Assembly (NCBI GenBank): GCA_002281485.1
Contig: NCGF01000015.1
Location: 1 to 64,000, forward strand
Reading direction: 5' to 3'
From: Sphingomonas sp. 28-66-16
GTDB lineage: Bacteria > Pseudomonadota > Alphaproteobacteria > Sphingomonadales > Sphingomonadaceae
DNA length: 64,000 nt
Position numbers and translations under genes: made by a program. The notes beneath the pieces were generated by a model, which made no database searches, was not told the origin of the DNA, and worked only from the letters and a program-made list of their open reading frames with translations. This document shows positions 1 to 2,741 of this stretch, piece after piece; the stretch's first letter is position 1, and every line of letters starts with the position of its first letter.

Positions 1-339
1 ATCATAATCATGATCGTCGATGTTCGGACGCATCTTGATCTCCTTGATCTCCTGCGTCTTCTGGCTCTTGCGGGCGAGGTTGGCCTTTTTCTGGGCCTCG
101 TACTTGAACTTGCCGACGTCGAGGAACTTGGCGACGGGCGGATCGGCGTTGGGCGACACTTCGACAAGGTCGAGGCCGACGGCCTGCGCCTGCTCCATCG
201 CTTCGCGGGTGTACATCACACCCAGATTTTCGCCGTCCTGATCGATCACGCGCACCTTGGGCGAGACGATGAATTCATTGAAGCGCGGACCGTTGATCGG
301 CGGGGGCGCGAGCGGGCGCCGGGTCATGGGAGGACGTAT
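1..339 (-). CDS. infC: Translation initiation factor IF-3 (N-terminal part; 3' end outside window)
   Basis: IF-3 binds the 30S subunit and checks start-codon and initiator-tRNA selection. The visible 113 codons contain the typical IF-3 N-domain, with [36 protein letters not shown] and the linker start [20 protein letters not shown]. The C-terminal domain is cut off by the window edge; full-length IF-3 is usually about 170-180 residues. The first in-frame ATG (327) has no ribosome-binding site. Four codons upstream an ATA (339..337) lies 8 nt behind a perfect AGGAG, so I place the start there. Non-AUG starts (AUU, AUC, AUA) are a known hallmark of infC and underlie its autoregulation. The gene lies 74 nt after thrS, the usual thrS-infC order. 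Confidence 0.93.
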
Positions 340-347
340 GGGTAAAG

Positions 348-352
348 CTCCT
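348..352 (-). promoter_or_regulatory. Ribosome-binding site that decides the infC start (AGGAG before ATA)
   Basis: AGGAG on the minus strand is followed by 8 nt (CTTTACCC) and then ATA. The downstream ATG is preceded by CCTCCC, which is anti-SD-like and cannot serve as a Shine-Dalgarno sequence. Confidence 0.7.
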
Positions 353-413
353 GTAGTTGTAAGAGGTCCATATAGGCATTTTTACGCCGATGCGAAAGAG
401 CGATGCGGCGCGA

Positions 414-2414
414 TCAGCGAAGATCAGGCGGCGTTGCATCCCTGACGAGGTGCGCCACCAGGTCGTCGAGCGCCACGATCTGCTGCCGATCGCTGCCGAG
501 TTGGCGTAGCGCGACGGTGCCTTCCTCGCTCTCGCGCTTGCCGACGACGAGCAGGTTGGGGACTTTCGCCAGCGAATGTTCGCGCACCTTGTAGTTGATC
601 TTCTCGTTGCGCAGATCGGTTTCGACGCGGATACCCGCCGCCGCCAGCTTGGCCGCCACGACATGCGCATAATCGTCGGCATCCGACACGATCGTCGCCA
701 CCACCGCCTGCACCGGGGCGAGCCAGAGCGGGAATTTGCCGGCATAATGTTCGATCAAAATGCCGATGAAGCGCTCGAAGGTGCCAAGGATCGCCCGGTG
801 GAGCATGATCGGGCGGTGGCGCTCGCCGTCCGCGCCGACATAGCTCGCGTCGAGCCGTTCGGGCAGCACGGTATCGGTCTGGATCGTGCCGACCTGCCAG
901 GTCCGCCCGATTGCATCGGTTAGGTGAAACTCGAGTTTCGGCGCATAGAAGGCGCCCTCGCCCGGCAGTTCTTCCCAGCCATAGTCCGGCGTATCACGCC
1001 CGCTTGCCTTCACCGCATCGCGCAGCGATTGTTCGGACCAGTCCCACATGTCCTCGCTGCCGAAACGCTTGTCGGGGCGCAGCGCCAGCTTGATCGCATA
1101 GTTGTCGAAGCCGAGATCGCGATAGACCGAATCGAGCAGATCGCAGAACGCCTTCACTTCCTCGATCAGCTGGTCCTCGCGCACGAAGATATGCGCGTCG
1201 TCCTGCGTGAATTGCCGCACGCGCATGATGCCGTGGAGCGCACCGTGCGGCTCGTTCCTGTGGCAACAACCGAATTCGGCCATGCGGATCGGCAGGTCGC
1301 GATAGGATTTGATGCCCTGTTTGAAGACGAGGATATGCGCCGGGCAGTTCATCGGCTTCAATGCCATCATGTCGCCCTTGCCATGCAGCACCGGGCCTTC
1401 GCCCTCGGCATTGGGCACTTCGTCGGGCACGGCGAACATGTTTTCGCTATATTTGCCCCAATGGCCCGAGCGTTCCCATTGGCGCACATCCATCAGCTGC
1501 GGGGTCTTGATCTCGGCATAGCCCGCCGCGTCGAGCCGGCGGCGCATATAGGCCTCCAGCTGGCGCCACAGGATGAAGCCCTTGGGGTGCCAGAAGACCG
1601 AGCCTTGCGCTTCGCTTTGCAGGTGGAACAGGTCCATTTCCTGGCCGATGCGGCGGTGATCGCGCTTGGCGGCCTCCTCCAGCCGCGTCATATGCTCGGC
1701 CAGCTGCTTCTTGTTGAGCCAGCCGGTGCCGTAGATGCGTGAGAGCTGCGGGTTGTTCTGGTCGCCGCGCCAATAGGCCCCCGAGACGCGCGTCAACTTG
1801 AAGGCATCGGGATCGAGCTTGCCCGTCGAGGCGAGATGCGGCCCCCGGCACATATCGAGCCAGTCCTCGCCCGACCAATAGACCGTCAGCGGCTCGTCGC
1901 CCGGCAATTCGGCGGCCCATTCGGCCTTGAAGGTCTCGCCCTGCTGCTTCCAGCGGCTGATCAGCGTCGCGCGGTCCCAAACTTCGCGGCGCAGCGGCTT
2001 GTCGGCGCGGATGATCGCGCGCATCGCCTCCTCGATCGCGGGCAGGTCGTCGTCGGTGAACGGGCCATGCTCAGCCGTCGGCGCGAAGTCATAATAAAAG
2101 CCGTCGTCGGTCGACGGGCCGAAGGTGATCTGCGTCCCCGGAAACAGTTGTTGCACCGCTTCGGCGAGCACATGCGCGAAATCGTGTCGCGCCATTTCCA
2201 GCGCGTCCTTCTCGTCACGGTTGGTCACCAGCGCGAGCGTCGCACTCCCCTCGAACGGCCGCGTGATATCGCGCAGTTCGCCATCGACCCGCGCGCCGAT
2301 CGCGGCCTTGGCGAGGCCGGGGCCGATCGCCGCGGCAATATCGGCCGGGGTGGTGCCGGGCGCGACCTCTCGGACCGAGCCGTCGGGGAGGGTGATCGCA
2401 TAAAAATCGTTCAT
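414..2414 (-). CDS. thrS: Threonyl-tRNA synthetase
   Basis: Class II aminoacyl-tRNA synthetase that charges tRNA(Thr). It has 666 residues, normal for the family. In order: an N-terminal TGS domain (about 1-65), an editing domain with the HxxxH signature ([10 protein letters not shown], about 77-86), the catalytic core with [10 protein letters not shown] (zinc-ligand Cys), FTQDDAHIF (zinc-ligand His) and [13 protein letters not shown] (His), and a C-terminal anticodon-binding domain beginning around PLWLAPVQ. The start at 2414 ([10 protein letters not shown]) has AGGA 6 nt upstream. The open frame runs further upstream, but that part overlaps the attenuator and is not protein-like. It is the first structural gene of thrS-infC and sits behind a threonine-rich leader peptide, so its transcription is probably controlled by charged tRNA(Thr). 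Confidence 0.97.
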
Positions 2415-2484
2415 GATCGTTCCTGTCGCATGGGCGCGCTTATGCATAAAGGGGCGGCCGGGGAAAGAGCGGAACGAAGTAGTG

Positions 2485-2541
2485 GACGCCAGCCCCCCGT
2501 TCCCGGGCGGAGCCTGAAGCGCCAGCGTCAACCGGTGACGC
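2485..2541 (-). promoter_or_regulatory. Putative threonine attenuator: antiterminator and terminator hairpins
   Basis: On the minus strand, GCGTCA (2541..2536) pairs perfectly with TGACGC (2530..2525) across a 5-nt loop. The second arm overlaps GACGCTGGC (2529..2521), which can instead pair with GCTGGCGTC (2493..2485; 9 bp including two G-U pairs) around an inner CCCG-GGAA-CGGG stem. The two folds exclude each other. The stop codon of the leader peptide lies inside the switch. There is no clean U-run after the larger hairpin; only TTCGTT and CTCTTT follow, so termination efficiency is uncertain. Confidence 0.6.
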
Positions 2542-2608
2542 GTAACCCCAAGCCCCCAGGGACAGCCCGGGTGGTGGTAGTCGTGGTTAAGGGAGAAGGA
2601 TTGGTCAT
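2528..2608 (-). CDS. Threonine leader peptide (26 aa) upstream of thrS
   Basis: A 27-codon frame on the minus strand starts ATG ACC AAT and holds six consecutive threonine codons at positions 8-13 (ACC ACG ACT ACC ACC ACC), plus Thr2 and Thr25. It ends at TGA 2530..2528. Such a run is the hallmark of attenuation leader peptides. There is no Shine-Dalgarno sequence, and the ATG lies only 7 nt after a good -10 box, so the transcript probably begins at or next to the ATG (leaderless). This resembles the leaderless trpL of Sinorhizobium. The peptide itself probably has no other job than sensing Thr-tRNA(Thr) supply. Confidence 0.75.
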
Positions 2609-2615
2609 CGCCAAC

Positions 2616-2644
2616 AATCTAGGTCGGTCGGCTTAACGGCACAA
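2616..2644 (-). promoter_or_regulatory. Putative sigma-70-type promoter of the thrS leader
   Basis: On the minus strand TTGTGC (2644..2639) and TAGATT (2621..2616) are separated by exactly 17 nt. The expected transcription start, about 7 nt after the -10 box, falls at the ATG of the threonine leader peptide (2608). Confidence 0.5.
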
Positions 2645-2741
2645 GTCACCTCAAGCGGCGCCCCCGCCTCTTCCAACCCATTGTGTTGCCGGCGGGCCCC
2701 GGCTTACCCTGTCGCATCGTCAACGTCACGGGAGTCGCCGC

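Follow-up and report, generated by a model that had tools for sequence, protein, structure and literature searches.

The window analysed here, a 64,000-nt stretch of contig NCGF01000015.1 from Sphingomonas sp. 28-66-16, carries on its minus strand a gene for threonyl-tRNA synthetase, thrS (414..2414; 666 aa), whose coding sequence (2414..417 plus stop) contains the Pfam domains tRNA-synt_2b, HGTP_anticodon, TGS and tRNA_SAD. Downstream on the same strand lies infC (1..327), a name we take from its sequence (IF3), which is cut by the window end. Upstream of thrS, again on the minus strand, a -35 box TTGTGC (2644..2639) and a -10 box TAGATT (2621..2616) are separated by a 17-nt spacer, the latter lying 7 nt before the ATG at 2608 of an apparently leaderless ORF of 26 codons (2608..2528; stop codon TGA at 2530..2528). 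This ORF contains a run of six Thr codons (ACC ACG ACT ACC ACC ACC; 2587..2570), the presumed sensor, and the distance from its stop codon to the start of thrS, the presumed controlled gene, is 113 nt. Both the promoter pair with its 17-nt spacing and the 26-codon frame with six consecutive Thr codons are present just as an earlier, sequence-only reading of this locus had described them; that reading proposed a leaderless threonine attenuator in front of thrS and infC.

No Rfam model, the enteric Thr_leader included, matched at its gathering score across the window, and the Rfam covariance models gave nothing up to an E-value of 10 within 2380..2700. Folded alone, the window leader was no better than its shuffles (z = 0.67). 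Since its fold energy was unremarkable, we examined the relatives of this leader, and the case for an attenuator made below is a comparative one, drawn from sequences.

Upstream sequences of thrS were collected from 147 genomes of the order, 142 of which had a thrS match, and from 80 named loci. Thirty of the 142 came as loci; of the other 112, 100 were fetched for the upstream scan, which spanned 400-420 nt before thrS. The scans yielded 41 accepted Thr leaders, the window's included, once L001 (DNA identical to L002), L266 (14 aa, no layout) and L026, L129 and L178 (4 or 5 Thr in 8, layout not fitting) had been dropped before counting; L105, which belongs to another group, was kept separate. 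Near-copies are included in the 41, of which 40 are distinct in the pair counts for helices 2:3 and 4:5 and 29, at below 75% identity, serve in the arm-swap test (both described below). The leaders have 21-27 codons and end 112-161 nt upstream of thrS, and many of the peptides share an ending pattern, a Thr run followed by PG.RGR..A. In the window's own family, 25 of the 64 genomes of the order set carry the leader, and two more (G114 and G144) have it farther upstream. No convincing leader was seen in 66 upstreams fetched from seven other families, four of these stretches being short. Over the whole collection, the upstreams of limited length were L157, L172, L183 and L199 (22-315 nt), L300 (152 nt) and L054 (101 nt).

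A short predicted ORF with a run of Thr codons, upstream of a threonine gene, is rare elsewhere in the same loci. With such an ORF defined as 12-35 aa long, starting with ATG or GTG and having at least 5 Thr in 8 codons, 16 of 55 thrS upstreams contained one (L032-L086, with L054 offering just 101 nt), vs. 1 of 1,586 other 400-nt stretches of these loci. The codons themselves are also distinctive. ACT makes up 19% of the 307 Thr codons of the leaders vs. 3% of 777 Thr codons in the available thrS genes of the carriers, so the Thr run is not ordinary Thr coding; ACG is depleted (21% vs. 46%).

To each leader we assigned the in-frame start and the pair of boxes with the best joint score, allowing spacers of 16-19 nt and a -10 box 5-8 nt before the start, a restriction that makes the distance from -10 to ATG partly a matter of construction. 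For L112 and L139 the start was fixed manually beforehand; in 12 of the 41 leaders the scoring then selected an in-frame ATG farther upstream. As some box is always found by such a search, it is the score that counts: the best promoter score averaged 10.08 over the 41 leaders vs. 6.22 with the same best choice after shuffling of the 75 nt that precede the ORF (sd of the means 0.18; maximum of 200 shuffles 6.66). The spacer was 17 nt long in 38 of the 41 leaders, vs. a mean of 10.4 and a maximum of 18 in the shuffles, and the chosen -10 box begins with TA in 39. The promoter placement on which the idea of leaderless transcription was founded is, by these measures, a conserved one, and the transcript would start at or next to the ATG of the leader ORF.

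Alignment of the leaders brings out a series of arms with alternative partners (window coordinates are for the minus strand). Arms 1 and 2, CCCCGG and CCGGGG, form helix 1:2 (2574..2562 with 2561..2552; -13.2 kcal/mol), which starts at the last Thr codons. A competing helix of about ten pairs can unite arm 2 with arm 3 (helix 2:3; 2561..2546 with 2520..2502; -20.5 kcal/mol), and further pairings are possible of arm 3 with arm 4 (helix 3:4; 2514..2503 with 2502..2489; -14.5 kcal/mol) and arm 4 with arm 5 (helix 4:5; 2506..2495 with 2482..2469; -13.3 kcal/mol). A further helix, C (2494..2484 with 2463..2451; -11.8 kcal/mol), is built from the sequence lying between arms 4 and 5 and a partner located beyond arm 5, and is followed by CUUUAU; it is the candidate terminator, and the window's copy has, by eye, one mismatch in the conserved core. 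The helices form two mutually exclusive sets, 1:2, 3:4 and C on the one hand and 2:3 and 4:5 on the other, with 3:4 assigned to the state in which a ribosome sits at the stop codon and 2:3 and 4:5 to the state in which it stalls.

We compared the pairing of each species' own arms with that of arms exchanged between species. In 29 non-redundant leaders, this arm-swap test gave z-scores of -8.5 for 4:5, -4.6 for C, -3.8 for 2:3, -3.2 for 3:4 and -2.5 for 1:2, making 4:5 the helix with the strongest covariation of all. Similar values were obtained with 37 held-out rows (-8.7 for 4:5, -5.8 for C, -4.9 for 3:4, -4.5 for 2:3 and -2.5 for 1:2), taken from 40 same-family sequences unused in building a model of the leader (after removal of L218, which duplicates L217, of the near-copy L220 and of L248, which aligned poorly); helices 3:4 and C are absent from that model. 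Alignment cells in which both sides of a pair had changed numbered 41 vs. 14.9 in shuffles for 2:3 and 4:5, and 47 vs. 19.3 for 1:2, 3:4 and C, counts reached in 0 of 500 shuffles in either case, with the reservation that kinship among the species makes all such covariation figures optimistic. The 40 held-out sequences had 31 such cells vs. 6.3 (0/500) for the model's own pairs, in an alignment fitted to the model. Two of the five covariation summary measures, the numbers of pairs showing a both-side change, were less extreme (matched by 5/500 shuffles for 2:3 and 4:5 and by 21/500 for 1:2, 3:4 and C); slid controls agreed in direction with the shuffles. Because both exclusive helix sets covary, the comparison indicates that two incompatible structures are maintained side by side. 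Alignment of the Thr codons and stems across relatives, which had been suggested as a check of the attenuator, thus finds them conserved in the 41 leaders, with helices that covary: the exclusive helices carry compensatory changes and could be selected by the position of a ribosome. The consensus fold of the first alignment had almost no structure, perhaps because the exclusive states cancel each other out.

Two hairpins had been picked out in the window by itself: the stop codon had been placed in one at 2541..2525 that was to exclude a larger one at 2529..2485. The stop-codon hairpin does exist as sequence, stacked within helix 2:3 of the window at its tip, and it finds weak support over the 41 leaders (z = -2.1), but this support disappears within the seven leaders most like the window's (z = +1.1). 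The larger hairpin is likewise present as sequence (GACGC/GCGTC at 2529..2485); its swapped arms pair as well as its own (z = +1.7; 4798 of 5000 permutations as good), and it was rejected for want of any covariation of the stop region with 2489..2485. Two other hairpins, 6:7 and 7:8, were weaker in the arm swap (z = -3.4 and -2.1, respectively) and were omitted from the model.

Folding the part of each of the 41 leaders left free by a ribosome, the reach of which is an assumption, gave a pairing that changes with the position of that ribosome. With the ribosome at the stop codon, the mean expected pairs were 6.6 for 3:4, 1.1 for 4:5 and 4.0 for C; with the ribosome at the last Thr codon, they were 7.5 for 2:3, 5.0 for 4:5, 2.6 for 3:4 and 2.0 for C. 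Only some of the leaders switch in equilibrium folding. Helix C had at least 4 expected pairs in 20/41 leaders at the stop codon and still did so in 10/41 at the stall, while 4:5 had at least 4 at the stall in 19/41. The switch was almost complete in L008, L011, L012, L016, L019, L067 and L120; equilibrium folding of the window's own sequence gave no clean fold either way, helix 3:4 not being favoured. The more general claim of the sequence-only reading, that ribosome-dependent alternative structures precede thrS, is borne out by a predicted pairing that shifts with ribosome position, cleanly in some leaders.

We propose that thrS is preceded by a ribosome-mediated attenuator with a relay ending in helix C, a reading to which we would give a probability of about 0.8. 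Transcription would begin at or next to the leader ATG, and a ribosome loading on the leaderless message would translate the Thr run at once. When charged Thr-tRNA is plentiful, the ribosome would reach the stop codon and cover arm 2; 3:4 would then pair, leaving arm 5 free, helix C would form and thrS expression would be stopped. When charged Thr-tRNA is short, the ribosome would wait on the Thr codons and cover arm 1, allowing 2:3 to pair and freeing arm 4 for 4:5; the loop of 4:5 would enclose the 5' arm of C, so that C would be lost and thrS read. That the leader is an attenuator of thrS sensing Thr codons seems to us highly probable. The attenuator of the enteric his operon also has more than four arms, and alternate pairing relays the signal to a distal hairpin. 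There, a neighbouring arm captures an arm of the terminator itself, whereas in the sphingomonad leader the 5' arm of C would lie within the loop of 4:5.

How helix C would act on thrS admits several answers. Its tail has a mean of 2.7 T in 8 nt vs. a background of about 1.3 (37 leaders, the four with gaps in helix C being left out), and in L043, outside the 37, there is by eye no T in the 8 nt after helix C. With the U-tract so weak, we hold intrinsic termination at helix C only tentatively as the output, at somewhat less than even odds. The weak U-tract would also suit an output through Rho, in which the same Thr sensor and switch would expose the pyrimidine-rich loop of C in the replete state and hide it through 4:5 in the stall state. 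The loop has a mean composition of 0.39 C and 0.15 G and holds more C than G in 28 of 30 leaders (eleven were left out of the loop measurements), compared to 0.36 C and 0.31 G for the whole leader; however, at 26 nt on average it is below the length usually expected of a Rho site, and two other alphaproteobacterial thrS leaders, described below, have a plain U-tract terminator. We consider this output possible, though unlikely. It is less probable still that the same sensor works on translation, with helix C or a 4:5/C pseudoknot blocking the next start codon. By general rules the loops of such a pseudoknot would be feasible (medians of 6, 4 and 12 nt in 30 leaders), but the end of the model, just past C, lies a median of 51 nt before thrS, and the predicted unpaired fraction of the thrS RBS was 0.54 vs. 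0.56 between the two states (A above B in 15 of the 41 leaders). As the RBS appears equally open in both states, control would likely be exerted before thrS translation, and we rejected a translational switch at the thrS RBS for lack of a difference in accessibility. A few loci described below have an exoribonuclease-like gene inserted between leader and thrS, and there helix C, by eye, ends shortly before the start of that gene, with no U-tract; in this clade a translational output is possible.

Two further explanations would do without an attenuator altogether. The leader could be a conserved gene for a small protein and nothing else, the RNA structures being a by-product of GC-rich coding, as the ending shared by many of the peptides might lead one to think. 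This is barely credible, given that the best covarying helices, 4:5 and C, are located beyond the stop codon together with most of 3:4, and double changes keep the pairs there. Autoregulation by ThrRS of the E. coli type would act through hairpin 7:8, a tRNA-like structure near the start codon with a loop that is often TGTGCCAT. By eye, a hairpin with a partly conserved loop does lie between C and thrS in many leaders; however, among the pairings tested that of 7:8 is supported least (z = -2.1), its loop triplet varies, and the Thr run and the 2:3/4:5 helices would be left unexplained, making this explanation very improbable. If the ribosome-mediated attenuator is taken as the preferred reading, its most elaborate form would be a new architecture: a relay of at least five arms, in which arm 4 does or does not enclose the 5' arm of C (possibly as a pseudoknot) depending on where the ribosome stands at the Thr codons, transcription being ended without a U-tract, for example by uncovering a Rho site, and the whole being inherited across the family and standing, in one clade, before an exoribonuclease-like gene that precedes thrS. 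Taken as a package, this is a speculative proposal that we think is rather unlikely to hold.

Thr leaders of a more conventional kind occur elsewhere in the class. We scanned 93 thrS upstreams from it (70 of the 104 class genomes were covered, and L299, L313, L317, L322 and L330 were without a thrS start) and found plausible Thr leaders in three other alphaproteobacteria, L105, L267 and L282. In L105 and L267 the leader closes with a GC hairpin followed by TTTTTT, the textbook form of an attenuator, which suggests that control of thrS by plain termination exists in the class. Promoter-like boxes can be seen by eye just upstream of the Thr ORF in all three.

A covariance model built from the 41 leaders (R1), which has no Rfam counterpart, scored 66.5 bits in the window, the next best match having 12.1. 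It found one match each in 125 of 347 genomes of the family, in 39 of 96 genera, a count that is a lower bound given strict filters. The match lay upstream of thrS and on the same strand in all 125 genomes: in 103 of 103 this followed from the coordinates, and the other 22 were within 30 loci that were opened (30/30). The distance from the end of the match to thrS was 20-90 nt in 93 genomes and 152-599 nt in 10. Among 289 genomes of the class, R1 gave five matches, three of them in the window's own family and two outside it at E-values of 0.0055 and 0.0081, about what chance would produce in that many genomes.

Within the family, the leader comes and goes. In the window's genus, 3 of 10 genomes were seen to have it, and many near relatives are without it. 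On a thrS tree of 85 rows, its presence calls for at least 11 changes vs. 24.3 in shuffles, counting L009 as lacking the Thr leader, though a divergent copy sits farther upstream there. The sequence and structure shared by the leaders lead us to favour a single old origin followed by many losses. In three of the opened loci a gene is inserted between leader and thrS (L242:287-793, L243:188-679 on the minus strand and L009:927-1412). It has no Pfam match and is weakly similar to the polyadenylate-specific 3'-5' exoribonuclease RNase AS (NCBIfam E-values of 0.0011 for L242 and 2e-05 for L009, the two that were tested), a similarity far below the curated cut-off. In this clade helix C is kept with quite different letters, as judged by eye.

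The control of thrS is a standard example of how differently synthetase genes can be regulated, with T-boxes in Firmicutes and autoregulation by the protein in E. coli. These systems likewise control synthetase genes through the charging of tRNA or the enzyme itself; they differ from the sphingomonad leader in binding tRNA or protein directly, with no leader ORF. Both T-box riboswitches and the autoregulation of E. coli ThrRS are touched on in PMC2965389. Stalling on an apparently leaderless Thr leader, with family-wide support from covariation, would be a further solution to the same problem.

The use of leader-peptide attenuation for a synthetase gene had been thought less expected, but there is precedent in Streptomyces lividans, where leader peptides stand before thrS, leuS, trpS and other genes, the first three being leaderless (PMC8079986). 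The thrL of strain TK24 is, like the sphingomonad leader, a short leaderless ORF directly before thrS; unlike it, thrL has just two Thr (MKRVRPFLETTPGFVPAR) and belongs to a distant phylum, with no evident homology, and the accessible text describes no comparative or structural test of it (PMC8079986). The peptide of thrL (..ETTPGFVPAR; PMC8079986) has TTPGF in common with several sphingomonad leaders, which may be coincidence or a common constraint, one that arm 1, formed by the Pro-Gly codons, might impose. Attenuators of leuS and trpS in Streptomyces were predicted earlier (PMC1262725) and similarly involve leader peptides of synthetase genes (PMC1262725, PMC8079986); they differ in the amino acids and the bacteria concerned, and leuS is described as having an antiterminator and a terminator with a poly-U tract. 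Also established is the leaderless trpL/rnTrpL of Sinorhizobium meliloti, an alphaproteobacterial leader peptide with the ATG at the very start of its transcript; it belongs to a biosynthetic operon, responds to Trp and, in the sections of the two reports consulted, is described without any relay of the 4:5/C kind (PMC7298713, PMC10117765).

The kind of element is therefore already known, as leaderless leader peptides before synthetase genes; its relay is longer than the classical four arms. The literature that we searched contained no description of the sphingomonad thrS element, an earlier prediction being possible in a 2010 comparison of synthetase operons. The leader RNA constitutes a defined family with no Rfam 15 match in the window, and can therefore be annotated and put to the test at once. 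It also offers a well-sampled case of attenuation in which no U-tract is apparent, and so bears on an open question about GC-rich bacteria.

As for the extent of the unit, the suggestion that infC is controlled together with thrS found no support. Among 53 loci extending more than 1 kb beyond thrS, 26 had infC downstream on the same strand, but only 2 of the 15 leader-positive ones did (with a partial infC query, so that some may have been missed); we therefore rejected it as a conserved part of the unit. Between thrS and infC, within 413..328 of the window, there is by eye a TATATG box, which suggests a separate infC promoter. Closer to the leader, a motif like TGTGCCATGGCGC or CATAAGCGC can be seen at 2450..2430, about 30-50 nt before thrS, which may be a second, proximal thrS promoter or hairpin 7:8. 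By eye, it recurs in relatives at the same place, whether the leader is present or absent.
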